From: Arctopsyche grandis
Lineage: Eukaryota; Arthropoda; Insecta; Trichoptera; Hydropsychidae
Reading direction: 5' to 3'
Assembly (NCBI RefSeq): GCF_051622035.1
Contig: NC_135362.1
Span: forward strand, 21,289,001-21,353,000
DNA length: 64,000 bases
Shown piece after piece: positions 2-21,000 of this stretch. The translations under genes were made by a program, and so were the position numbers. Every line of letters starts with the position of its first letter. Position 1 is the stretch's first letter. The notes under the pieces are model-generated. The model did no database searches and was not told the origin of the DNA. It saw nothing but the letters and a program-made list of their open reading frames with translations.

Positions 2-1114
2 ACACAAAGTACTGCTAGATCTGGAAAAGCAACTACTTCAAGAATACCCAGTTCGTCTACTTCTACGTCCACCACTACTTCCAGACATCAAAAATCTAAT
101 ATAGATAGGCAACAGCAAGCACATTTGCAGCATTTGCTTTTGCCGCATGACACTTATTTATTAGAATCACTTAGTAAAGTGTCTGCTTACGATACTAAAC
201 CTAGTGAAAAACGACCGCGAGACGTGGAAAGAAGAGATACAGTTGAATTGACTAAAGTAGAAAAACGTAAAAGCAGTGAGTCTGCTAAATCTCATTTTAC
301 TCCTGAATTTATGGCTGTACAAGAACAACTTTTAAAATCAGCGAAAGGTGATAAAAAAGAATCTGATATAAGTAAAATGTTATATGAACAAATGGCGTCT
401 GGCGCTTTGTCTGCCAGTTTAGTTAGTACAGGAAATGCCAAACGCAAAGACGACGATCCTAAAGATTCTTTTGAAAAACTGAGTAAAACATCTGCTGAAT
501 TTATAGCTAGGAGCCTAGAAGATCAAAGACTTCCCACTCCATCAGATTCAAAATCTCAGATAGAAGTATCATCTCCAGAGGCCGAAAATCTCACAATGCG
601 TGATGATGAAACTTGTAGTCCAAATAAGATTGAAGCTGAAAGTATGACTCAGCCGGCTGCCCAGACTCCCACTGTCGATAATTCTATTGCTATCAACGAG
701 ATGGATCTCGAGGACTTGATAGCCCCTTCTACTGTTGTACGTAGTAGCGCAACAGTTCCTGAAGATGATAAGCCTGTAGAAACTTGTCTAAAATCGCCTT
801 ACAAATCGGAAAATGAACCCGAGCCAGAGCAATGTCCTTCACCTTTGCAAAACGAAAGTAAAGAAGAACAAAATAAATCTCATACGTCGGAAGATGCGTC
901 TTCAACGGAACCATCGCAAGACAACAGCGACGGTTCCAAGAAAACGGTAGTGCGGAAACCTCGCGGCAAAAGACCCCGTGACGAAATGGAGCAACCTACC
1001 GAAAGGAAACGAGAGTTGCGGTCCAGCGCAGGCAGACAAGCTGCTGCAGCAGCTGCTCGCGCTGCCGCCGCTGCTCGTCAGGAACAAGCTGCGGCTGCCC
1101 AACCGCCTCCATGA
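2..1114 (+). CDS. C-terminal part of an unrecognised, probably nuclear protein (5' end outside window)
   Basis: An open frame runs from the first bases of the window to a TGA at 1112-1114, giving about 370 residues; the gene begins upstream of the window. The protein is hydrophilic and low in complexity: a Ser/Thr-rich start, then a long stretch rich in Lys, Glu, Asp and Ser with many SP and TP sites, then a basic patch (KPRGKRPRDE, and ERKRELRSSAGRQ) that looks like a nuclear localisation signal, and finally an Ala-rich tail with Arg and Gln ending in QPPP. I see no catalytic domain, zinc finger or membrane segment. The composition fits a chromatin or transcription-associated protein, but this is inference and I do not recognise the family. 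A possible AATAAA signal lies at 1519-1524. The frame has no stop over more than 1.1 kb of 33-45% GC DNA, so I am confident that it codes. Confidence 0.8.
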   Translation, partial: TQSTARSGKATTSRIPSSSTSTSTTTSRHQKSNIDRQQQAHLQHLLLPHDTYLLESLSKVSAYDTKPSEKRPRDVERRDTVELTKVEKRKSSESAKSHFTPEFMAVQEQLLKSAKGDKKESDISKMLYEQMASGALSASLVSTGNAKRKDDDPKDSFEKLSKTSAEFIARSLEDQRLPTPSDSKSQIEVSSPEAENLTMRDDETCSPNKIEAESMTQPAAQTPTVDNSIAINEMDLEDLIAPSTVVRSSATVPEDDKPVETCLKSPYKSENEPEPEQCPSPLQNESKEEQNKSHTSEDASSTEPSQDNSDGSKKTVVRKPRGKRPRDEMEQPTERKRELRSSAGRQAAAAAARAAAAARQEQAAAAQPPP

Positions 1115-3845
1115 CCAGTGCGACGCAATAGCTCGCGTCATTGAATTATAAAACAACAGTGATACGCAATATTGTGAACTGTTTAAATATTTATTGAAAC
1201 CCATGTAATATAATTGACTTGAAGAGAAGATAAATATAGTTATATTAACATGCACTTTTTACAGGTGAAATGTGAATGAATATGTTCAAGCGAACTGTAT
1301 CTAGTGGGCTTTTACCTACATTATGACATTAAAGCTATGTAATTTTCCATAAATGCTAGATATATTATCATACATATATATATATATATATACATTATAT
1401 TTCACTTTCTTAATTTCTTATCATATGTTCTGTGATAGCATTGTTTTGTTACGAAGAAATACGGACATTAAAATTGCAGGGAATGTTCGGTGTAAACACT
1501 CAATCTGATGAATCGTGTAATAAAAATATTTTTTCTTTACACTTACTTGTGTACATTTAAATTGTAAAATTTATTCCAATTATTTTTTTAATAGCCCGAC
1601 TATTCCCGAACATCTTTTTTGTAACATATTTATTATATTATTTTTATGCTTGTTTAATGTTTTTAAGGATCTGCATATTAAGATATTTTAAATGTACTAG
1701 TTTATCTAATTAAATTTGACATCGATTTATGCTTTATTCTTTTTAATTTTAAAATTATATTTATATATGTATGTGCCTTTTCTAACACACAAAAAAATGA
1801 ATCGATACCAATCACTTACTTCAAATGTCTAAAATAATTTCATGCGAGACCTGCATCGCCTTGCCTTTCTCCATTTTTGAACTCTTGCAAGCTACAACAC
1901 AAATCCCTACACTGGCTTTTCGAATGCAGCCTCTCACCTCCATGCAAGATTTTTTCATCCACATTATTAAACGCGTGATTGTTTCATCCCAGCAATACAT
2001 TTCTAATGCAAGTAATTTATTCAGAAAATTGGAACATAATATAAAACAGCAATTGTAAATTATAGTATACATTTTTTGTAGAAAAAAAAGGCGTTGGTTT
2101 ATCTTATAATTTATTCCAACATCTAGTTTTTTTTCTTGTCAATTCAACTATCAATTAAATTTTATTATTGGATCAAACGATTTCTTTAACTGAGAAAATA
2201 CTGTTCCTGATCACCAATTACATCTCTGTTTGAGACTGAAATATCTTTTACGCTAATAATTTAGTGTGACCAGTTATTAGTTATTGAAGAATCAAGGACA
2301 AATTTACACAAAGAATGGACCCCATGTCTTCTTAGATATTAGTCTTAATACTGGCGTTATGAATGCGCCAATGGAATATATGATTATGTCCATATAGAAT
2401 GCACCAAAGAATACTTTTCGTACTTCCTGGTTACATGCAGTTGCCAGTCTGTCCTATGCTAATATTCACTCGGATTAGTGTCCAGTTATGTATTTATGCT
2501 GTTCTCACTGAGGAGTCTATTACCAGTAAATTATTACTTTTCCCAGTAAATCAAGAAAACGTTGGTTGCGTTTTATCACATTCCTTTCATTGTCTTCTGG
2601 CAGTACTGGTCCGACCCAGTGCTACTACACAAAATCAGCAGGAAAACACATTTTAAGTAACGAACTGAAAGCAACATTGATTGTTCGTATAAAGAAACAA
2701 CAAACCTATTCTAATGTCTTACAATATCTATAAAACTCCACAGTACCACATATAAGAATATGGTATTTTTAACACAATAATGTAAATAACAAGAAGTTAA
2801 TGAAGATGTAGTAAATATATCGGTTTCAAACTCCAATGATGATATTGCAGTAGTTTTATCTACGACTGAACGTACGCTGAGAGTAAAAAAAAAGGCTTTA
2901 GTTGGGTATTAGAAATAAAACTGAAGTCAGAAGGAACCTACCCAGAAGAAATTAAATAGACTTTTCCGAGAAGAAATATGTAAAATTAACTTTTGATTAT
3001 CTGATAATAGCCAGACCTTTTTTTACAAGCCTCATATCAAGTGTTTTTCGTTTGACAAAATTTAGCACTACTACTGTACCGTAGTCTGAATACGTTTTGT
3101 GTGCAATATATCTTATGTACATAATTAACGGTTTTTATTAGTGTTTGTTTAAGTTCATTTTGTACGAAAATAGTTAATTTTTGATTGATATTATGAAGGA
3201 AAATATCGCCAATTCTCACGTTACGAAAGCATTTTCTTAATGTATAAAAATCATGTATATGATGGTACTATTTTAGCAATGAATAACCAATTATTCAGGA
3301 GTCTTACTATGTATGTAGTGTGAATTATGACAAGAATTACATTCATGCGATGTAATTCATATCACATGAAGTGTATGTATATACTTGCCTGTGAAATGCT
3401 TGAGCAGGAACTGGCTAACCTATATAAGTATCTAACCGTACATTCAGAACTTGAATGCCGATCTCAATTCAAAACTATCGGATTACTCCTTAGAATATAT
3501 TGAAATTTAAAGTTTTCCAAAAATGTATGAATCTTGTTATAACAGAACCCAAACTTATAACCAATTTACTTTAAATTACATTATTTGACTATCAAAATAT
3601 TGTTTTAAAAACTTTCTCAATAAAACCATCTTTATATTTTATATTATCAGCCATCAAATAGTAAAAAAAAAATACTACAGCAAGTTTGCGTTTAGGGTTC
3701 CAACAAAAATTGAGTATTTCTAGCCGAATACTTCATATAATACAATTATAAATATCAAGCATATCTAAGGAAAAGAATAAATTAAATATCAGTTACTTTT
3801 AACTCATACAGTATATTATAAAAATAAATAAAACAAAGTTGATTG
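1115..3845. other. 3' UTR and intergenic DNA, no gene seen
   Basis: The first few hundred bases are probably the 3' UTR of the upstream gene, with an AATAAA at 1519-1524. The rest is AT-rich, with short AT microsatellite runs (for example around 1372-1395). Short open frames here have no codon bias, no splice context and no recognisable protein, so I call none of them. Confidence 0.5.
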
Positions 3846-3873
3846 TTTATTATAGTTTAATTAAAAACATATC

Positions 3874-4666
3874 CTAGGCTTTGATAGCATAAGTGCGGGG
3901 TAAATTCTTGTAATTCCTGCGGATCTCTTTACGTGTTTTGATTTGGGCCTCGCGCTTGGAAAGAGCTCTTCTGATCGCTCTGGTCTTCTTGGGCCTCAAG
4001 TCCAAAGGCTTGTACTTTTTGTTCTTGTAAAAACTCCTCAGGTTAGCCTTTTGCTTTTGGTGCATAACAATGAACACGCGAGCAATAGCTTTCCTCACCA
4101 CACGACTAAAAAACAAAGAAAACGAAAAAAATGCTAAAAATATACAAACAATGATAAAGTAACCTAGCAATGTCTCCTCGGAGTACATTTTTGAGGTTAA
4201 ACAGTCCAGAATTGAAAATGACTACTCGCAACTGACAGACACCGGTACAATTTCAATTCCACACTGATGAATGTCGTACACAGTTCATAACAGTCACATC
4301 AACAATAATTAGATTAGAACAACGTGTTAATTTGAAAAGTGGTGTGCTGTCAAAAGACCGCACTGGAACGTCAACGTCGAGCTCACGGCTTTGACAGATA
4401 AGAGGGGAGGGGAGGGGAAGCGGCTCACATTTTGGAAAGCTTGGAGGCGGCGCCGCCGGTCACTTTGGAGACCCTCAGGTTGGTGAGCTCCGTCTTCAGC
4501 TCATCCAACTGCTTGGTGAGCTCTCCTTTGCTCTTCACTCGCAACTCGGAGCACTTGACTTTGCCCTGAAACAGAAGCAGACGGTGAGGGGCGAATGGGG
4601 GCGAATGGGGGCGGGGGGGGCGCGGGGGCGCCCGATGGGGGCGGATTCACGCGGGAGGCTCACCAT
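3874..4666 (-). CDS. RpL35: Ribosomal protein L35 (uL29), complete, three coding exons
   Basis: Cytosolic large-subunit protein uL29, which sits at the peptide exit tunnel. Coding exons on the minus strand are 4666-4664, 4565-4429 and 4105-3874, giving 123 residues, the usual animal length. The first coding exon is only the ATG, followed at once by a GTGAGC donor; exon 2 opens GKVKCSELR and contains the coiled N-terminal hairpin ending GGAASKLSK; exon 3 opens [11 protein letters not shown] and holds the family signature [14 protein letters not shown], ending YAIKA with TAG at 3876-3874. Placing the start codon at the last base of an exon is common in ribosomal protein genes. A pyrimidine run upstream of the ATG (plus-strand 4689-4702 read in reverse) may be the TOP start site. 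A TTTATT at 3846-3851 is AATAAA on this strand, about 22 nt past the stop. The first intron is unusually G-rich on the plus strand. Confidence 0.96.
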
Positions 4667-5195
4667 CTCGAAGCACTTCGCTCGCGGCCGCACACAGAAG
4701 GATGGTCGGTGCAGCCAACGCAATCGTCAACGAATCGCAGGCTCGCCACCCACCGCTAACCAACTGCAAAATGCATTCCATTATATTCAATTTGCAAGCA
4801 ACAACAATATTTTTAATAATTTAGCAATGTGGATTAATCAAGTTAGTGTTAATATATGGATTCAAATAATACATTAATCGCCAATTAACAGCAAATTATC
4901 TAGTGACATTCAGCTTTTTCCAGGCGGGGGACGACAAAAGTTGGCCAATTTGTTATTGTTTTTTAAAAAACTTTTTTTTAAACCTACAGGCTTAGAAGCA
5001 ATTCTGAAATTGATATAGTTTCTGCTGGTATAAAGTTTTATTAAAGAATAATCGATTTGATTCACAGTAGTACATCAAACGATATGCATGTTTCTTACCT
5101 CGTCTAAACTAAGGAGGGAGCAAATGTCCCCTCCTGTCACTTCCAAATTATGTCCTTTTTTTTTGATGCGCTGGAGGTGGATTATCTTCAGAAGA
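4667..5195. other. RpL35 5' flank and short intergenic region
   Basis: Contains the presumed RpL35 promoter and 5' UTR (GC-rich up to about 4700), then AT-rich DNA. No other gene or repeat is recognisable before the target duplication of the hAT element at 5196. Confidence 0.4.
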
Positions 5196-5203
5196 CACCC
5201 TAC

Positions 5204-5430
5204 CAGTGGCGGCTCGTCCGTATGGGCTGCGGGTCGGCAGTCCACCCAGTACAGTACAAATTCATGCTATTTTTTTCGTCCACATGGGCTGCGGGCTGCA
5301 GACCTCCCAGTATAGTACATATGCATGCTATTTTTGTTTTCATTCGACCACTGGTTTGGTTAATGAGCTACTACAGCCTGATTAATCTCTGCAGCCCCCC
5401 CCCACTATAAATTCTCACGAGCCGCTACTG
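5204..5430. mobile_element. hAT-type MITE with perfect 8-bp target duplication
   Basis: A 227-bp element with terminal inverted repeats CAGTGGCGGCTCGT and ACGAGCCGCTACTG. It is flanked on both sides by CACCCTAC (5196-5203 and 5431-5438), the 8-bp duplication typical of hAT transposons. There is no coding capacity. A second copy with its own perfect 8-bp duplication lies at 48258-48472; both share internal GGGCTGCAG and ATGCATGCTA-like blocks. Confidence 0.88.
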
Positions 5431-5438
5431 CACCCTAC

Positions 5439-5690
5439 AGTCCGAACTGTAGGGTAGTACCGGATTTTTAACGGCTAAACTCAACCCCCTATGTTCACTC
5501 TTTGGGATTTCTATGTATTTCATCAAAGAGTAGGATCCTTTTATTCGTCTTCGTTCATTGTACGAAATGACGTCCCTGAAATTATCGCAGTGGCCCGAAA
5601 ATAAGGCGATGTTCCTCCCCTCCCATCGATTTTTTAATCTGCTTCTTCGAAATAATAAGGCGTCCAATTGTAATGGAATATGCAATGATT
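5439..5690 (-). other. Unidentified open stretch beside the LTR array
   Basis: Read on the minus strand this about 250-bp stretch is open and has protein-like composition (for example RNRWEGRNIALF-like and YNERRRIKGSYS blocks), and its GC content is nearer 45% than the local average. It stops where the hAT MITE begins and is cut at the other end by the LTR element. It could be a remnant of an older transposon or a chance frame; I do not recognise a family. Confidence 0.2.
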
Positions 5691-6053
5691 CACTTGTAGG
5701 AATCTCGTCGTCGTCATCGTCATCGAAACATTCGAGAATATTCCGCAACAACAAACTACATTCCCGAAACCCAGACGACATGCACCTGCAGTCGTTATAT
5801 TAAACTCAGGCGGAACGCCCCTACCAGTCGAGTGGAACCAAAACGGTCGAAACACGCCGCCACCATTAAAATACATCGAGCGGAAAGGCGCCAAGCATTC
5901 CAGAAAATTCGACGCCTCGACGAAAACAAAATTCCTCTCGTACGCGTCAATAACCACTTCCATCAAGCATTCCAGAAAATTCGACGCCTCGACGAAAACA
6001 AAATTCCTTTCGTACGCGTCAATAACCACTTCCACCAAGCATTCCAGAAACCA

Positions 6054-6060
6054 TATAAAA
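6054..6060 (+). promoter_or_regulatory. TATA-like box of the LTR
   Basis: TATAAAA followed by GGAGG, about 300 bp before the AATAAA at 6355-6360. The order TATA box then polyadenylation signal is what an LTR U3-R layout requires. The same sites recur in the other two LTRs at +2189 and +4378. Confidence 0.6.
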
Positions 6061-6354
6061 GGAGGTACAACGCAAACAACGACAGTCGACCCACAACAGC
6101 AAGCGTCGACACACAGCACCAGACCAGTCGACCCACAGCAGCAAGCGTCGACATACAGCTCCTGACCAGCCACCACTTCACTACACGGACTTGGAAGATC
6201 AACCAGCCGACCGAGCCAGCAACACACTGCCGTATTCAGAGACCTTCTGAACATAGCTGAATGCCGAGCCAGCGACACTCTACCATATCCAGAGACCGCT
6301 GAACGACATACTTTTGCCCACAAATACCATACCTTTGTACAACCATAGGCAAAC

Positions 6355-6360
6355 AATAAA
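6355..6360 (+). terminator. Polyadenylation signal AATAAA of the LTR
   Basis: AATAAA lies downstream of the TATA-like box and upstream of the CCTACA ends, so it would define the R/U5 side of the LTR. It is repeated in LTR copies 2 and 3. Confidence 0.55.
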
Positions 6361-6612
6361 ACTTTATAAAACTAGCACAACAGTGTTTCGTTAGGCCGGG
6401 ATACGGTCAACACACATGTAACCCGCCTACATTGGTACTAATCCGACGTGATCTACGCAACCTTCTGATCATCCAACAGCGCTGTCAACACATCGCTACC
6501 CCGCCCACATTGGTGACCCCATCTTTGAACCACACAACAGTGTTTCGTTAGGCCGGGATACGGTCAACACATCGTACCCCGCCTACATTGGTGACCCCAT
6601 CTTTGAACTACG

Positions 6613-6826
6613 CAGCCTTCATAGCAGTCAACAGCGCAGTCAACACGGCAGCCCACAGTGCAGCCTCCACAACAACCAACAGCCGCCACGACAGCAGCCC
6701 ACAGCGCAGCCTACATCGCAGCCTTCATAGCAGTCAACAGCGCAGTCAACACGGCAGCCCACAGTGCAGCCTCCACAACAACCAACAGCCGCCACGACAG
6801 CAGCCCACAGCGCAGCCTACATAGCA
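6613..6826 (+). repeat. 106-bp tandem duplication inside the internal segment
   Basis: CAGCCTTCATAGCAGTCAAC recurs with an exact 106-bp spacing (6613 and 6719), with CAGCC/CAACA-rich filler. It is copied again at 8802-9015 in the second internal segment. Confidence 0.8.
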
Positions 6827-7235
6827 GCCTACAACGCAGTCTACAACGCAACCCTCAACGCAGACTTCAAACGCAGTCCGCTACATGTCCCCACAACTAG
6901 TGACCATGTCAAACAACTCCGCAGCTTTCGCCACAACAAGACGCAACCCGGAGACAACAACCAAATGGATCCACTACTGTTGATCCGCCAGCACCGCTCA
7001 TCACACCTTCGATGATTCATCACCTCGATGAGCCCATGCAGGACGCCGCAGCCTGCACAACAGCACCGTCCAGACCGACACAAACCTTCACTACCATTGT
7101 AACGACCGAAACAGTAACATGGTGTGAAAGTACATATGGACCAGCTACCAACACAACCCGCTGTTGAGTCAACCCACTCCAGCACAACCGGCGAAACAAA
7201 TCGCCACTGAGCCAACTAGCTCCAACACAACACAG

Positions 7236-7610
7236 CCGCTGTCGAGACAACTAACTCCAGCACAACCAACGAAGACCAGCACTCAACGCACTTCGTCAAC
7301 CAACGTTCTTCACGCAAGATCCGCTGTCGAGACAACTAACTCCAGCACAACCAACGAAGACCAGCAGTCAACGCACTTCGTCAACCAACGTTCTTCACGC
7401 AAGATCCGCTGTCGAGACAACTAACTCCAGCACAACTAACGAAGACCAGCACTCAACGCACTTCGTCAAACAACGTTCTTCACGCAAGACCCGCTGCCGA
7501 GACAACTAACTCCAGCACAACCAACGAAGACCAGCACTCAACGCACTTCGTCAACCAACGTTCTTCACGCAAGACCCGCTGCCGAGACAACTAACTCCAG
7601 CACAACCAAC
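7236..7610 (+). repeat. 85-bp minisatellite inside the internal segment
   Basis: Units begin GTCGAGACAACTAACTCCAG (GCCGAGAC in the last two) at 7241, 7326, 7411, 7496 and 7581, an exact 85-bp period with few substitutions. It is copied at 9425-9799 in the second internal segment. Confidence 0.85.
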
Positions 7611-7883
7611 AAAACAGTCACGCGAATGACTCCACGCAGAACACAGCAGCCTGCACAACAGCACCATCCAAGCCATTACAAACCTTCACTGCCAACGCAG
7701 CTCGCCCAAAATAAGCAACCTGGTAGAGAACAAGACTTGGACCGGCATGCAACACAAGACCCGCTGTCGAGACAACTTTCTCCAGCACAACCGGACAAAC
7801 AACGACGCCATCGAGTCAATAGACTCCAACACATCAAGATTCCCACAAAATCACACACATCGCTAACACTCACCGGAGAGCCA

Positions 7884-8776
7884 TGTAGGAATCTCGTCGT
7901 CGTCATCGTCATCGAAACATTCGAGAATATTCCGCAACAACAAACTACATTCCCGAAACCCAGACGACATGCACCTGCAGTCGTTATATTAAACTCAGGC
8001 GGAACGCCCCTACCAGTCGAGTGGAACCAAAACGGTCGAAACACGCCGCCACCATTAAAATACATCGAGCGGAAAGGCGCCAAGCATTCCAGAAAATTCG
8101 ACGCCTCGACGAAAACAAAATTCCTCTCGTACGCGTCAATAACCACTTCCATCAAGCATTCCAGAAAATTCGACGCCTCGACGAAAACAAAATTCCTTTC
8201 GTACGCGTCAATAACCACTTCCACCAAGCATTCCAGAAACCATATAAAAGGAGGTACAACGCAAACAACGACAGTCGACCCACAACAGCAAGCGTCGACA
8301 CACAGCACCAGACCAGTCGACCCACAGCAGCAAGCGTCGACATACAGCTCCTGACCAGCCACCACTTCACTACACGGACTTGGAAGATCAACCAGCCGAC
8401 CGAGCCAGCAACACACTGCCGTATTCAGAGACCTTCTGAACATAGCTGAATGCCGAGCCAGCGACACTCTACCATATCCAGAGACCGCTGAACGACATAC
8501 TTTTGCCCACAAATACCATACCTTTGTACAACCATAGGCAAACAATAAAACTTTATAAAACTAGCACAACAGTGTTTCGTTAGGCCGGGATACGGTCAAC
8601 ACACATGTAACCCGCCTACATTGGTACTAATCCGACGTGATCTACGCAACCTTCTGATCATCCAACAGCGCTGTCAACACATCGCTACCCCGCCCACATT
8701 GGTGACCCCATCTTTGAACCACACAACAGTGTTTCGTTAGGCCGGGATACGGTCAACACATCGTACCCCGCCTACA
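7884..8776 (+). repeat. LTR copy 2 (shared, middle)
   Basis: Same 893-bp LTR as copy 1, starting TGTAGG after GAGAGCCA and ending CCTACA before TTGGTGACCCC. It serves as the right LTR of the first unit and the left LTR of the second. Confidence 0.85.
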
Positions 8777-10072
8777 TTGGTGACCCCATCTTTGAACTAC
8801 GCAGCCTTCATAGCAGTCAACAGCGCAGTCAACACGGCAGCCCACAGTGCAGCCTCCACAACAACCAACAGCCGCCACGACAGCAGCCCACAGCGCAGCC
8901 TACATCGCAGCCTTCATAGCAGTCAACAGCGCAGTCAACACGGCAGCCCACAGTGCAGCCTCCACAACAACCAACAGCCGCCACGACAGCAGCCCACAGC
9001 GCAGCCTACATAGCAGCCTACAACGCAGTCTACAACGCAACCCTCAACGCAGACTTCAAACGCAGTCCGCTACATGTCCCCACAACTAGTGACCATGTCA
9101 AACAACTCCGCAGCTTTCGCCACAACAAGACGCAACCCGGAGACAACAACCAAATGGATCCACTACTGTTGATCCGCCAGCACCGCTCATCACACCTTCG
9201 ATGATTCATCACCTCGATGAGCCCATGCAGGACGCCGCAGCCTGCACAACAGCACCGTCCAGACCGACACAAACCTTCACTACCATTGTAACGACCGAAA
9301 CAGTAACATGGTGTGAAAGTACATATGGACCAGCTACCAACACAACCCGCTGTTGAGTCAACCCACTCCAGCACAACCGGCGAAACAAATCGCCACTGAG
9401 CCAACTAGCTCCAACACAACACAGCCGCTGTCGAGACAACTAACTCCAGCACAACCAACGAAGACCAGCACTCAACGCACTTCGTCAACCAACGTTCTTC
9501 ACGCAAGATCCGCTGTCGAGACAACTAACTCCAGCACAACCAACGAAGACCAGCAGTCAACGCACTTCGTCAACCAACGTTCTTCACGCAAGATCCGCTG
9601 TCGAGACAACTAACTCCAGCACAACTAACGAAGACCAGCACTCAACGCACTTCGTCAAACAACGTTCTTCACGCAAGACCCGCTGCCGAGACAACTAACT
9701 CCAGCACAACCAACGAAGACCAGCACTCAACGCACTTCGTCAACCAACGTTCTTCACGCAAGACCCGCTGCCGAGACAACTAACTCCAGCACAACCAACA
9801 AAACAGTCACGCGAATGACTCCACGCAGAACACAGCAGCCTGCACAACAGCACCATCCAAGCCATTACAAACCTTCACTGCCAACGCAGCTCGCCCAAAA
9901 TAAGCAACCTGGTAGAGAACAAGACTTGGACCGGCATGCAACACAAGACCCGCTGTCGAGACAACTTTCTCCAGCACAACCGGACAAACAACGACGCCAT
10001 CGAGTCAATAGACTCCAACACATCAAGATTCCCACAAAATCACACACATCGCTAACACTCACCGGAGAGCCA
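8777..10072 (+). other. Internal segment 2 of the LTR element
   Basis: Repeats the 1296-bp internal segment, including the 106-bp and 85-bp tandem repeats at +2189. I saw no differences from segment 1 in the stretches compared. Confidence 0.8.
9425..9799 (+). repeat. 85-bp minisatellite, second internal segment
   Basis: Same array as 7236-7610, offset by exactly 2189 bp. Confidence 0.8.
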
Positions 10073-10965
10073 TGTAGGAATCTCGTCGTCGTCATCGTCA
10101 TCGAAACATTCGAGAATATTCCGCAACAACAAACTACATTCCCGAAACCCAGACGACATGCACCTGCAGTCGTTATATTAAACTCAGGCGGAACGCCCCT
10201 ACCAGTCGAGTGGAACCAAAACGGTCGAAACACGCCGCCACCATTAAAATACATCGAGCGGAAAGGCGCCAAGCATTCCAGAAAATTCGACGCCTCGACG
10301 AAAACAAAATTCCTCTCGTACGCGTCAATAACCACTTCCATCAAGCATTCCAGAAAATTCGACGCCTCGACGAAAACAAAATTCCTTTCGTACGCGTCAA
10401 TAACCACTTCCACCAAGCATTCCAGAAACCATATAAAAGGAGGTACAACGCAAACAACGACAGTCGACCCACAACAGCAAGCGTCGACACACAGCACCAG
10501 ACCAGTCGACCCACAGCAGCAAGCGTCGACATACAGCTCCTGACCAGCCACCACTTCACTACACGGACTTGGAAGATCAACCAGCCGACCGAGCCAGCAA
10601 CACACTGCCGTATTCAGAGACCTTCTGAACATAGCTGAATGCCGAGCCAGCGACACTCTACCATATCCAGAGACCGCTGAACGACATACTTTTGCCCACA
10701 AATACCATACCTTTGTACAACCATAGGCAAACAATAAAACTTTATAAAACTAGCACAACAGTGTTTCGTTAGGCCGGGATACGGTCAACACACATGTAAC
10801 CCGCCTACATTGGTACTAATCCGACGTGATCTACGCAACCTTCTGATCATCCAACAGCGCTGTCAACACATCGCTACCCCGCCCACATTGGTGACCCCAT
10901 CTTTGAACCACACAACAGTGTTTCGTTAGGCCGGGATACGGTCAACACATCGTACCCCGCCTACA
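10073..10965 (+). repeat. LTR copy 3 (right end)
   Basis: Last LTR, ending CCTACA at 10965 and followed by CACT, the target duplication shared with 5691-5694. This end fixes the true LTR border, because the earlier CCTACA and CCCACA copies inside the LTR are not at the insertion edge. Confidence 0.85.
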
Positions 10966-12095
10966 CACTTATGATCAGACTTCAACGTTGGCTCGATGCT
11001 AGTCAAATAACAATAGATCTCTCCATTACAATACAAAGCAAAAGAGCAAAAAATCAATTGTAAAGCATCGTCCAAACGCCGTCTTTTACTTATTATAAAG
11101 GACCTCTTCCCCATTAATCTACAACATGGTCGAGTTTGGGTCACCATCCTGTGAATTAGGACCAATTCGAATTTGATGCTCGTAGCGATTGCTTTACTTC
11201 TTTTCCGCTCGTCATATTAATATATTTATATTAATAGTCAATGGGAGCACCATTGAGGCTATATTATACAAGATATTCAGGAATGTCACAGGACTTTTAT
11301 TCCAATGCCTACTCTGCATGTTTGCCAAGTCGCGAAAATAATCTTCTTGCGCAGGCGTGTCGAAGTCTACATACATAACGCACATCTTGTATCATATATT
11401 TTTTTCACAGAGTTGGCCCAACATCAAAAAGAGGCATTTAACATTATGGCTTGTAGTTTCTTCCAATTGACCGGATGGCTTTTTCAAAATATAACATTTG
11501 TGGGAATCTTGTGCGTCACAACAATATTTTTGTTGGCTATTAATTTAAATATACCACTTTAAAAGTAGCGCAGCGATGTCTGCATGTGCTATTAAAAGAG
11601 AAATGTAAAAAAATAAGTTTTTATTTCACGAATAAACCAATTTAATGTTTTTCTTACATACGTACATAGAAAATTTATTCCAAGTATGACGCTATACTAA
11701 TCACACGTTATTGTAGAAATATAGTCTTACCAATGCTATGAAGAATAAATTTATTTATTATTAGTACTAGTGTAGTATTTGGCAATTTTTTTAACTATTC
11801 AAAAAAGAAATTCCTAGCAATATGCATTAAATTGACTTGAAAGGCAAATTTGTACTGATATTAGTCAATGCACTAATTGAAATTTTTATTTTGAAAGCTT
11901 TTGATAGTATCATAATTCATTACTAATTTTATGGCAGTTACTTATCTGAAAGTTTAAACATCTATTATTGATAATAAGTACATATATTCCAAATTAGGCA
12001 AATTTATACTCAATTGGTGTTAGGCAATTTTGGGAAAATACAAAGTTACAATGTCAAAGCTACGCATTTAAAATAAAATATATATCATAGGCACT
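10966..12095. other. Intergenic between the LTR element and GM130
   Basis: The first few hundred bases have a higher GC content than the surroundings and include a short open frame at 11305-11562 (+) with two hydrophobic stretches. I found no homologue, splice context or codon bias to support it. The remainder is AT-rich and ends at the GM130 polyadenylation signal (TTTATT at 12096-12101, AATAAA on the minus strand). Confidence 0.4.
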
Positions 12096-12144: not shown

Positions 12145-15100
12145 TTAAACATGAATCAACTTTCCGGAGCACCACGGACATGGATGAAAGTTATCTAAGT
12201 TATCACACGCGTTGTTTGTCTCAGTCAGATGATTAATCTTGATGTCGGTGAGAAGTTTAATAATTTTATCAGCAGTATCGGCTTTTTCCAATTGAGCTCC
12301 ATCAATTGCATGTTGTAATAAAGGCATTTTATTTTTTGATCCATTATTATATTCGATCATTAGTTGTTGAACTAATTCATTCAATTGATCCAGTTGTTCT
12401 TTCATCTGTTGCCTTTCTTGAGTTAGTAGTCGTAACTGAATATCTTTTTCATATTCTCTTTGTTTTAAAATACTCCTCTGCTTTTGATACAGTGCGATAT
12501 ATTCACATATTGTTTCAGTTTCACCTTGCAACTGTAAAACCAAATGTTCTAATCTCTGTTTATCATCCGATAAATTAGCTACATCGTCCATTAATCTAGT
12601 AAATCTTTCTTGAAGTTTTTTCATGGCTTCATTCGTGGGAATGTGTAAACAAGTTTCAGAATGCAATATTCGTTTGTTCGGTTCATCTTCACCATTGTAA
12701 AGTTTTTCAGTTTCAAGGCGATCGATTTCTTTACTCAACATGTTTGTTTCTTCTTCTATACGCAAACTTTCTTCATAAGATTTGTCATCATTTGACAAAA
12801 CATTATTGTCACTTAAAATCGTTTTTAATCGACCATTTTCTTCAGTCATACTTTTGAGTCTGGTTCGAGCTAATTCAAATTCCTTTTGTAAAATATCAGA
12901 TGACTGATTTTGAACTTCATAATGATTCAATCGATCCATTATTTGAGCGTGTTTCAAGGCTTCTTTTTCCAAAATACTGGATTCCGCTTGCAATCTAATC
13001 ATTTCCTCATCCTTGGCAACTAAGTTAGATTGAGTTTTCTTCAACTTTTCTTCATTGTCAGCCAAAGTCAAGGTTAAAGTTTTTGTTAAATTTTTTTCTG
13101 CTTGAAGAAGCTCCACCAATTCCAGTTTATTTTCAGTCTATAACAAATTTTATTATGATAAAATATATTAAAAATTCAAAACAACAAGTGATGTAAACGG
13201 AAATACTTATGTATAATTTTATATGTAAATTATTATATCTGAGTTTTTTTATGTAAGAAAAACAATTATTTTAAAACAAACCATTTTATTATAAGCCTCC
13301 TGTAAATTTTCAATTTCATTCTTTAATTTATTATTTTGTGCAGTAGCTTTTTGGGCAGCAATCCGGTCACTTTCATTAGCCGCGTTTAACTTGGCCACAT
13401 CGGGCTGTTCTGACTGTAATAACTTCATTGCACTGTTCAATTCCTCAATCTGTGTTCTATTTTGTGCAACTTCCACCAAAGCTGTTCGCAGTGCGGTCTC
13501 TTTCTTTTGCAATTCCCTCTAAAAAAAAAAAAAATTATTTGTATACACATGGTTCACCCAGTTAATTATTACATACTTTTATACTACATAATATATAGTA
13601 ATAAAATATATACCTGAAGATCTAAATTGCTTTCTTCGATTGCTTTATTGTTCTCGTCAGATTGTGCAAGTTCTTGTTTAGGCGCTTCTTTAACAGCAGC
13701 ATTCGAAATGTGGATCGTTGATTGCAGTTGCTTTTCGAGCGTCTCCATTTGATGAATTAAATTCGATTCACGATTCGACAACTCCTCATTCACCAAAGCT
13801 AAGCTTTCGTGTTTTTTACTCATCAATTCCAATTGATCGTTCAATTGTTGAACATAGAGTTGATATTGAGCGTTCGATTGATTCTTTTCGGCATCCAATT
13901 GCTTTAATTCTTGATTTAAATTAGCAATACGTTGATTTAGCTCAGCATTTTCATCCATTAAACTTTGATTATTGGGTGCTTGTACATACCCCTGATTTAG
14001 TTGTTGGTAGCGTAATTCATTTGCATTGATGTGAAACATCAGCTCTTCCACTTTCTTTACGAGATCTGCATTCTCAGATAACTTTATATTAACCAACGAT
14101 TTTGTTTCAGTGAGTTCTTCCTTTAAATCGTTAGAGATTTTTGCATGAGAAGACTCGCCAGCTTTCAGTTTAGAATTCTCCAGCAACGCTTGATTAAGAG
14201 TTTTTGTTACATCCTCATATTTCTCTTTCATGGTGGAATATTCAACTTCTAAACATGAAGCACGCTGTCTAGAAATACTCAAACGACCTGATACGTCATT
14301 ATTTTGATTTTTCATTTCGGCAACGATATTTTCTAATTTGTTTACTTTAGAAGACAACGCATTTTTTTCCGATACTAAAAACTCTACTGTTTGCATATGA
14401 AACTGTAGTTGCTGTTGCAGTTTTATAACAGCTGATGTTGACATTGCCTCATCTATACTATCATCATCATTATCATTACTGCATTCATCGTTGTTAACGG
14501 CTGATCCTTTTTCATTCTCCAAAAATATGTTCGAGTTAGATTCTGGTGGTCTATTATCAGTAAATACAGATTCTCGAAGAAAACTATTTTCAGAATTTAC
14601 ATGATGTTGAATTTCATCATTAGATAAGTTGCCATTATTTTGATTCGAAAATAAAACATCGGCTAGTAAATACTTATTGTCAGACTCTGATTTGATTTCA
14701 TTTTGTTGAAATTGAACATTATTTGAAAGCTCATCAAAGAAATTCATAGGTGCTGAATTATTTAAATTGAAAGGATACTGATTGATTTTGGAATGCATTG
14801 ATTGGTCCGAGTTTTCAAATTTAGAATCATATGAATGTTCATTCTTTTCAACCGAATTTAAAGCCGCATCATGGTCTACAATGTTGTTTAATTCACAGGT
14901 ATCTTTAATGGTACTTTCCACAACATTTGGATCTTGTTTGACGGTCACTTTTCTTTTTGTTTTATATTCTTCTAACTGTGAAAATATAAAATAGAAATAC
15001 GTGTTTAGAAATACACATGTTTAAATAGCGTCAGCGTCTAGTCATCAGTTGCTTACATTTATCTAATAAACGGATATTAACAAAACAAAAAAGTACTCGA

Positions 15101-18031: not shown

Positions 18032-21000
18032 CTAAAGACACGTCGCAGGAAAAACGTCTCCAGTGTCAAATGTTTCGAACTGGTCTTGTTCGATTGGTTT
18101 CTTCAGCCATTTTCCAAGATTAGCTTTCAAAAATGCGTTGTACAATGCCAATTTTGAAGTCTGTAAATATAAATATTTGCATCAATACTATTTAACAACA
18201 TTAGTCATCACTGAAATAAAACATAAAAATTGTAAATACTTGATATAATAACGCTTTCGACTTTGCTATATCGTATTGTATTCCATGGATATCAAAATTT
18301 ATATGTTTTGGCGCTATTGGCACACAGTTAATATTATTGTAGGAGCCCCAATTCGGTTGTGGAGCTGGGCTGAGTCTTGAAGCTAACCGTGTCCACATCT
18401 TGAACATATTGTGTTTACATATTCTCGACGACAATCCCGAGTCAGTTTTTCCAGTCATGGCATTGACGATTTCAGCAGCCTGCACAGAATATTTGAAATA
18501 TAGAATTATCACAGATATATCTTATAAACCATCTTTTCAACAAAGCAAGTGTATATACTTCATGTCCTTTGGTCCAATTAACACTGAAGGAAGGCGCTCG
18601 CATTGCCTGACGTTGTTCAGATGAACTGCACTGAATTAGCATCGGTCTATTAAGGCGGAATGGTGGAGGCAAGCCTTTCAAAGTTCCGACCAATCTTCCA
18701 CATACAGCTCTATAGTTACAAAATAACAAAAAAAACATCGAATCATTCAGTGGGAAATAACTAAGACCATATTGAAAGAAATATGGCATATCACATATAT
18801 GTAAAAGTAGCGTAATGATAATAGGTGAATGTAAAGAGGGTCATTGCCCAGGAGCTTCAACACCGCATTGCTTAATTTTGGCCTGATTTATGGCACCTAC
18901 ATACATATGTGTAAAATTGGAAAAATTGTTCTACAACATTGACCATTGATACATGGAAAAAAACGAGAAAAACGAGATTTGACTCGCAACGAAAAAGAAA
19001 GTAAAAAAAAGTGGGTCATACATATCTTGCATAATTGCGTATAAGTTGCGTATATGTAGGTATTGGCATATTGTTATATTGTACATTTGATCACACTACA
19101 GCAAGGGTCATCGAACTCTTAGATCAGAGCACATAAATGAAAATAGCGCAATGATTTCGAATTCTACATTTTTGGTGATTTTCTGCTTTTTTTTTAAGTT
19201 ATAAATACTTATTTATTATATGAAAAAGGTTTCCCGAATAAGTTCTGTGTAAAAACACATGTTTTAATCATTAATAAGTGGCTCGCGAGAGTTGTACTAG
19301 AGTGAACATTAAATATTCGATTATGCAAAACAATATATACGTGCATATTTGAATGTGTCGATTATATAAATTTATTAACTCAATATGTTCCAAAAAACTG
19401 TTATGCGTATTTTTTGCTAAGCTACGGTGAAAATAGTAGGTTTTGTAAATTAAACAACTCTTAAGCCTTTTCAATCAATGAAACTGGATATTAGAATAAA
19501 CCTTCTTTATAGTTGTCTTCGACCATATAAATCAGCGGCTCCTAACCAGTGGTACGCGAAAAAAAATCAGTAATGGCGGACATGCAGGAATGAATGATTT
19601 ACAATTATAAATAGAAATATTTTATATTTAATTAATAAACATTATCATAATTAATCATAGTCGACGTATCGATGAATTCATTAAATCTCATTAAATTTAT
19701 TTTGTAAGGAGATTTAATTAAGAAAAGAAAATATATTACATGTACACTTAGTAATTTTTTTTTTTATTAAAACCATTCATCGGTAATAGAAGTATGACGA
19801 AATCTAATCTATAATTTGGAAAGAGACTTTGTATGTATGTATGTATGTATGTATCCTTTGTCGTCGTCGTCGTCCGTAGATCGGTGACGTCATCGAACAC
19901 GTGATTCGATTTTTTTTTTCGATCCATAGGCGCCAATTTGTTTTTTTCGATTCAATGGATTCACCCCCGCGGGGGCGCAAGGCGAGTAGTTTCATGGGGC
20001 CCCGCCAGGGGCGCCACAAGGGGCGCAGCCCCGTGGGGCCCCGAAGGGACCGCAGCCTCATGGGGCACAGCCCCATGGGGCCCCAAAGGGGGCGCAGCTT
20101 TCATGGGGCGCAGCCTTAAGGGGCGCTGCCTTATGGGGCGCCGCCTTATGGGGCGCAGCTTTATGGGGCGCTGCCTTATGGAGCTCAGCCGAATGGGGCC
20201 CCGAAGGGGGCGCAGCCCCTTGGGGCCCCAAAGGGAGCGCAGGAGGGCGCAGCCTCATGGGGCACAGCCTTTTGGGGCGAAGCCCTTAACGGCAACTGAT
20301 CATGGGGGCGAAGCCCTAGACGGCAATTTATCGTGGGAGCGTGGAGGGGCGAAGCCCTAAAAGGCATAAACTAAGGGGGGCGAAGCCCTAGACGGCAATT
20401 AATCATGGGGGCGTGGAGGGGCGAAGCCCTAAAAGGCAACTGATCATGGGGGCGAAGCCTTAGACCGCATTTAATCATGGGGGCGCGGAGGGGCGAAGCC
20501 CTAAAAGGCAACTGATCATGGTGGGGGGGGATAAAAACGGACGCGATGTGGGTATGTGGCAGAGCGTCGACCAGTATGGAGATTAAAAAAAAAAAAAACA
20601 AATCTTAGAACACCAGGAGTATGTATATGTTGTACCTAGAGATATTTAATAAAATAAATACACACGAGCAAGGTGCTCAGCCAATCAGAGTGAAGTGCAT
20701 TTTAAGCATCCGCTATTTTATACACTGAGCAACAACAAAAATGACCAGGGCGGAGACTAATCAATCTTTACTAAGTTTGACCCACTGAATTCGAATATGA
20801 TAATGATTTTTGCTGGTTTGCTCTCGTTTACGAGATATGCGCGTTTAAAAAAATGCAACTTTTTGGTTTGTGACGTCATCGTCAGATGCACTGCGCGGGA
20901 TCCACGAAGACACACATACATACATACATTCATCATTTCGAACGGGTGAACAGCGCATTCATACGAGCGCACGACTAATAATATGTCAGATAATAATATG

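Follow-up and report, generated by a model that had tools for sequence, protein, structure and literature searches.

A 64,000-bp stretch of the Arctopsyche grandis genome (C8:21289001-21353000, on contig NC_135362.1 of an assembly of 475.7 Mb in 189 contigs; hereafter the window) carries at 5695-10965 an array in which three identical 893-bp long terminal repeats (LTRs) alternate with two identical 1,296-bp internal segments at a period of 2,189 bp. The array is a dimer sharing its middle LTR (L3I2, three LTRs and two internal segments) of a young, non-autonomous LTR retroelement, probably made by unequal LTR-LTR exchange soon after insertion. In a self-comparison of the window, a single unbroken run of 3,082 bases (5695-8776) was exactly matched at a distance of 2,189, and 893 bases (5695-6587) were exactly matched at a distance of 4,378, LTR 1 being identical to LTR 3. 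An exact repeat of 3,082 bases, the length of one unit including two LTRs, is not due to chance. The array starts with TGTAGG and ends with CCTACA, and one pair of CACT lies outside it as a whole. An earlier reading of the letters alone (the sequence-only reading) had described the alternating structure with these lengths, this period and the CACT duplication, all of which were reproduced exactly; its description of a very recent head-to-tail dimer with a shared middle LTR is likewise borne out by identical units without any difference in 3,082 bases. The features of the array are the following.

5691-5694, no strand: target site duplication CACT, left copy (4-bp flank match)
5695-6587, plus strand: LTR 1, TGTAGG...CCTACA, 893 bp (exact repeat; LTR ends conserved across loci)
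6054-6060, plus strand: TATA-box-like motif in LTR 1, a putative promoter (motif scan; also at 8243 in LTR 2 and 10432 in LTR 3)
6355-6360, plus strand: AATAAA motif in LTR 1, a putative poly(A) signal (motif scan; also at 8544 and 10733)
6432-6587, plus strand: putative U5, the end of the LTR, with two primer-site-like copies 156 and 78 bp before the LTR end (motif comparison of LTRs)
6588-6598, plus strand: primer-site-like motif TTGGTGACCCC directly 3' of LTR 1 (conserved across loci; also at 8777-8787 after LTR 2)
6588-7883, plus strand: internal segment 1, apparently non-coding, 1,296 bp, with 106-bp and 85-bp minisatellites (exact repeat; Pfam scan)
7871-7883, plus strand: CACCGGAGAGCCA at the place of the polypurine tract, with a short purine run only (motif scan; also at 10060-10072)
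7884-8776, plus strand: LTR 2, the shared middle LTR (exact repeat)
8777-10072, plus strand: internal segment 2, identical to segment 1 (exact repeat)
10073-10965, plus strand: LTR 3 (exact repeat)
10966-10969, no strand: target site duplication CACT, right copy (4-bp flank match)

The minisatellites have units of 72 bp in the LTR and of 106 and 85 bp in the internal segment, and the plus strand of the element is A/C-rich (A 33%, C 34%, G 17%, T 16%). Open frames of some length are present in the element body on both strands. Three scanned frames over the window element, from which the lack of retrotransposon proteins is judged, gave no Pfam match above the curated cut-off, the matches below it being ChpXY (E 0.0021) and Thioredoxin_6 (E 0.0079); no gypsy-type reverse transcriptase or integrase frame was found in the element, in agreement with the sequence-only reading, which had seen no retroelement genes. 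Across 5400-11200 of the window there was no Rfam match up to E = 1, and derivation of the LTR from a small RNA, as for Cassandra, was rejected on these grounds. Insect mutation rates lie between 2.8e-9 and 3.5e-9 per generation, and with zero differences in 3,082 bases the doubling in the window is therefore younger than about 140,000-174,000 generations (95% bound).

Five further dimers of the same family were identified in the assembly. The sequence GAGAGCCA stands directly before the 3' LTR in the copies compared, with only a short purine run at the place of the polypurine tract, and its junction with the LTR (24 bases, up to two mismatches) occurs 158 times genome-wide. Two longer exact patterns for the junction of internal segment and 3' LTR located 94 and 30 places (124), and five more came from the pattern with mismatches, so that 129 of the 158 were placed. 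Adjacent junctions on the same strand less than 4 kb apart, found by eye, formed six pairs, namely the window and loci L029, L030, L033, L045 and L026; each was read directly, and the middle LTR is shared in all six. Shared-LTR dimers thus account for six of 118 elements with the exact tag, none being found at the five extra places, and no trimer was present among the 118. Another junction pair (C6:23667603 and 23672826, 5,223 bp apart) was rejected as a dimer, as it is a tandem duplication that includes flank and has no shared LTR; its members stay counted within the 118. At this locus (L046, C6:23666000-23675900) the 5.2-kb tandem duplication contains a family element end with flank, and a further junction copy lies about 35 kb away. 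The five dimers outside the window are listed below.

L029, C12: unit 2,289 bp, LTR 710 bp, AATT on both sides; no difference between copies
L030, C9: unit 3,769 bp, LTR 1,084 bp, AGGT on both sides; one substitution, in LTR 3
L033, C2: unit 2,774 bp; no difference over 3,813 bases, left flank outside the sequence read
L045, C10: LTR 1 identical to LTR 3 (919 bp), LTR 2 758 bp, CTAT on both sides; no substitution
L026, C13: LTR 2 844 bp, LTR 3 916 bp, CGAC on both sides; no substitution

All six dimers differ in unit length. Four, including that of the window, have equal units (2,189, 2,289, 3,769 and 2,774 bp) with one substitution in 14,747 bases overall, and two, L045 and L026, have unequal units. 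One outer matching 4-bp duplication was found in five of the six (CACT in the window and those listed for L029, L030, L045 and L026). LTR 2 of L045 has suffered a single loss of 161 bp between copies of a repeat, and the internal segments of this dimer (1,258 versus 1,173 bp) differ by one 85-bp unit. In L026, LTR 1 stops after its first 94 bp and is fused there to the terminal part of the internal segment. This amounts to a large deletion in the first unit, and the length difference between LTR 2 and LTR 3 is one 72-bp unit.

The family as a whole was characterized from 20 stretches around LTR matches, 15 further stretches and 14 short loci. Genome-wide, the LTR query matched at least 71 pieces and the internal-segment query matched 131, and a search for the first 35 bases of the LTR gave 434 exact matches. 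A lack of other LTR copies in the genome, which would have counted against the sequence-only reading, is contradicted by these starts; the search that it had proposed with the LTR did recover single units, solo LTRs and the other dimers. The ends TGTAGG...CCTACA were present in 22 of 24 LTR sets, window included (L011 counted on its first LTR alone; the exceptions are L020, which is broken off, and L029, which ends in CATA). Matching 4-bp flanks were found in 20 of these 24 sets, again with the window (e.g. CGGG in L009, GACC in L010, CTCC in L019, ACTC in L022), the remaining four (L011, L020, L026, L029) being cut or unbounded in that comparison; flanks of L026, L029 and L040 also match in separate readings of those loci. 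LTR lengths of twelve single units range from 764 to 1,004 bp, and internal segments differ strongly in repeat units, the largest un-nested one among the elements read measuring 2,685 bp (L030). No substitution separates the LTRs in 11 of 15 single-unit pairs, with a total of seven in 12,749 bases (L011, L031 and L032 gave part of the LTR only, and L026 was omitted as a dimer), and the nearest of 25 other LTRs compared lies 13 substitutions from the window LTR over 893 bases. The family is a young, apparently non-coding LTR retroelement.

Direct reading showed matching 4-bp flanks at seven solo LTRs (L013, L014, L015, the second LTR of L016, L017, L018 and L028). The first 100 of the 434 LTR starts, which cover C1, C2 and part of C3, include 31 3' LTRs and 41 unpaired starts, the latter being an upper bound for solo LTRs because at least one of them, C2:4828573, is a 5' LTR whose partner's 3' tag differs. 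An upstream partner lies within 12 kb for 29 of these 31 3' LTRs, with an odd spacing in three cases (822, 5,507 and 9,983 bp). The 822-bp spacing separates plus-strand starts at C2:30320221 and 30321043, the second with the tag of internal segment and 3' LTR, and marks an element with nearly no internal segment or a broken one.

In the origin that we favor, the RNA of a single unit would have been copied by the proteins of another element, and the resulting single-unit copy would have inserted, creating the CACT duplication. Shortly afterwards, an exchange would have taken place between the 5' LTR on one sister chromatid or allele and the 3' LTR on the other, leaving LTR-internal-LTR-internal-LTR on one product and, reciprocally, a solo LTR on the other, with the middle LTR as the recombinant. 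Unequal exchange of sister or allelic copies fits the data because of the single outer duplication, the identical units and the solo LTRs, and LTR-LTR recombination seems common in the family, judging from the seven solo LTRs and from the unpaired starts. The changes in LTR length in L045 and L026 are located in the middle LTR, which is where they would end up after a crossover between misaligned repeats of the LTR. The sequence-only reading had taken the array to be inserted as one unit, which does not follow from its flanks, as insertion of one unit followed by expansion at the site predicts a single flanking duplication just as well; of the two origins it had offered, LTR-LTR recombination stands as the best explanation, and a one-off assembly duplication has become unlikely with five further shared-LTR dimers. 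Several points weigh against unequal exchange. A dimer retrotransposed whole also predicts one duplication, an LTR 1 identical to LTR 3 and an LTR 2 free to differ; there are no marks by which to place a crossover, because there are almost no substitutions; and further events are needed, because the internal segments of L045 differ by an 85-bp unit and the first unit of L026 is deleted. Moreover, no trimers were found, although repeated exchange should yield some, and the 41 unpaired starts are only a ceiling for the solo LTRs.

Insertion of the dimer as one unit is possible, though we consider it not likely. A read-through transcript of a dimeric locus or of a one-LTR circle would be reverse transcribed, with LTR 2 copied as internal sequence and LTR 1 and LTR 3 made alike by reverse transcription. 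The single duplication around the array agrees with this, as does L045, where LTR 1 and LTR 3 are identical over 919 bases, LTR 2 lacks 161 bp and segment 2 lacks an 85-bp unit, all without a substitution. Read-through of a weak terminator is conceivable because a TATA-like motif and an AATAAA motif are present in every LTR, and the available text of a plant study (PMC11899658) leaves the route open. Unit lengths are different in all six dimers, whereas a mobile dimer lineage might give dimers of the same length, and the solo LTRs indicate that ordinary LTR-LTR exchange happens in the family. It is quite improbable that the assembler went twice round a loop formed by two identical LTRs. An exact copy without any difference is what such a double walk gives, and six shared-LTR dimers with units of different lengths, judged from the assembled sequence, make a one-off error unlikely; two of them have unequal units, unlike a simple double walk, one carries an LTR substitution, and the 189 contigs, 13 of them of 29.5 to 42.7 Mb, suggest a long-read assembly. 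Least probable is the integrase-independent recombination of a circular one-LTR complementary DNA into an existing single insertion, which would give the same structure with one duplication and, for existing elements in yeast, is mentioned in the accessible part of PMC11899658. A circle from another copy would usually differ, given the 13 substitutions to the nearest LTR compared, yet the two units are identical; closer copies are possible among those outside that comparison.

Direct TG...CA terminal repeats and a fixed 4-bp target duplication place the family among the LTR retrotransposons; at least two copies carry different target duplications, and no retrotransposon proteins were found in the frames scanned over the window element. 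Large retrotransposon derivatives (LARDs) are non-coding elements of over about 4 kb with a long internal domain and long LTRs, a definition outside which a unit of 3,082 bp with an internal segment of 1,296 bp falls. The unit also exceeds the limit of under 1,500 bp given for whole terminal-repeat retrotransposons in miniature (TRIMs; PMC4717578), and the family is therefore not classed with the TRIMs; its behavior is that of a larger relative without genes. The family itself is new and the L3I2 arrangement is already known. The sequence-only reading had found no known family to match, which may hold for the sequence; the arrangement has been described, both as the L3I2 tandem TRIM and as the tandem LTR retrotransposon.

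The following comparisons draw on partial texts of the cited papers. In the tandem TRIMs of plants (L3I2 and L5I4; Zma-SMART and Wukong of maize; Cassandra), LTRs alternate with non-coding internal segments as in the window, and recombination or unequal crossing over has been proposed for them (PMC4528315, PMC4717578, PMC7215508). The maize tandems lie within a single outer target duplication and belong to families that include solo LTRs, as in the window family. Plant TRIMs differ in size (less than 1,000-1,500 bp versus a unit of 3,082 bp) and, in the maize examples, in their 5-bp rather than 4-bp duplications; the window element has no Rfam match such as 5S RNA, and only dimers were seen, whereas L5I4 also occurs in plants. 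Tandem LTR retrotransposons of rice and other plants (PMC11899658) share with the window two internal regions, three LTRs and one duplication; their internal regions are 94-99% alike at two loci described, and single, tandem and solo haplotypes occur at one site. Those elements are plant gypsy and copia elements, in contrast to the gene-less family in an animal genome described here. Among animals, biv-TRIM of bivalves (PMC6934838), ta-TRIM of taeniid tapeworms (PMC4558846) and PbTRIM of ants (PMC3532108) are non-coding and LTR-bounded with solo LTRs, like the window family; 4-bp duplications are shared by the ant and tapeworm TRIMs (PMC3532108, PMC4558846), and tandems by those of bivalves and tapeworms (PMC6934838, PMC4558846). 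Animal TRIMs are much smaller than the window unit (480-781 bp in ants; PMC3532108), and the primer site of the ant and tapeworm TRIMs is of the leucine transfer RNA (tRNA) type, unlike the putative one in the window (PMC3532108, PMC4558846). No tandem TRIM is reported for ants according to the portion available of PMC6934838, and the word 'tandem' is missing from that of PMC3532108. Double transposable-element insertions in Drosophila (McGurk and Barbash 2018, as cited in PMC11899658) are tandem elements in an insect, like the window, a likeness by citation only; an insect-like host is not new ground because of them.

Among the loci read, no autonomous partner with the family LTR was found, and the larger partner sharing the LTR that the sequence-only reading had envisaged did not emerge. 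A 9,983-bp LTR pair with a gag-pol frame (C3:3715716-3725699) was rejected as a coding member, being another element nested in a non-coding copy. The nesting follows from comparing the 5' part of this locus (L048) with another copy of its gag element (L049; BEL and gag named by eye from the frame), because homology starts only at base 1,267 of L048 (98.7% over 928 bases), past the family LTR and its primer sites. As this nested insertion is the sole 9,983-bp pair with gag-pol inside, sharing of LTRs with BEL/Pao elements was rejected. The BEL-type gag that adjoins family LTRs in L032, and that near L020, were also read as nested, with an element end abutting a broken LTR. In L032 (C2:26170000-26179500), two inverted gag-like frames (BEL type by eye; 3178-8840), 99.5% alike over 2,750 bases, lie beside a family element. 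Locus L037 (C2:34496200-34500600) holds a gypsy-type pol element (RVT_1, RNase H and rve by Pfam) with the long primer-site motif described below; blastn found no match to the window LTR there, and L037 is a candidate helper only. That the helper of the family may be of Ty3/gypsy type is a guess, made because of the 4-bp duplications and the primer-site motif in common with L037.

The motif TTGGTGACCCC at the 5' end of the internal segment presumably resembles the 3' end of tRNA-Trp, and a longer form, TTGGTGACCCCGACGTGAT, is present in L024, L040 and the pol element L037. No host tRNA-Trp gene was found by ARAGORN on eight loci or by three genome pattern searches, two of which had no match; the other gave 13 places, of which 3 were exact, and two of these lie in a locus that bears an LTR. 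Near base 1,505 of L042, on the minus strand, a tRNA-Trp-like 3' end is followed by CCA with no tRNA gene by ARAGORN, perhaps a reverse-transcribed tRNA end. All 22 LTRs listed contain primer-site-like copies, one at -78/-79 and one at -154 to -157 (two more in the solo LTR L014), and in all 22 the LTR ends one unit beyond the last inside copy. Locus L040 (C12:5542700-5547000) has at 251-4162 two identical 787-bp LTRs with GGTC on both sides; five primer-site copies follow one another in tandem (1035, 1111, 1189, 1267, 1345), and these LTRs stop at the first, the other type-A LTRs read stopping at the last copy. As read from these loci, the LTR boundary falls at different members of a tandem primer-site array within one family. 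A natural reading, drawn from one clear element, L040, is that the choice of primer site during reverse transcription would explain the shifted end; a limited literature search returned nothing on tandem primer-site arrays moving LTR ends. Seven primer-site copies in a row, in long and short forms, lie beside a short inverted LTR-end piece at 519-1010 of L047 (C6:12334000-12337400). A second LTR type (L029, L031, L032, L048) has the same 5' part and a different 3' part that ends in CATA before the motif GGTGACCCC, with a second copy of GGTGACCCC 86-87 bases downstream at all four loci; it looks as if its LTR end had been exchanged with another family.

Taken further, the family might move as dimers as well as monomers, with dimeric transcripts packaged and inserted whole, the outer LTRs identical and the middle one drifting by loss of repeat units (L045), and with the primer-site array allowing a different primer site, and so a redrawn LTR boundary, in each round of reverse transcription (L040); we regard this combined scheme as speculative and rather doubtful.

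Elsewhere in the window, the frame neighboring the array (12148-13137, minus strand, about 1.2 kb from the element end) is of golgin A2 type (Pfam GOLGA2L5), and an open frame of W/G/P/R-rich repeated units at 19905-20360 on the plus strand is probably a minisatellite.

The most interesting leftovers are the unequal middle LTR of L045 and the shifting LTR end of L040. A single family in an animal genome here provides six LTR dimers that are young and near-identical, and the two origins that the 2025 plant study PMC11899658, in its available text, leaves open (unequal LTR exchange or insertion of a dimeric cDNA) could be separated by genotyping the same sites in a few individuals. A shifting LTR end in a primer-site array, if borne out, would offer LTRs a simple route to a new length.

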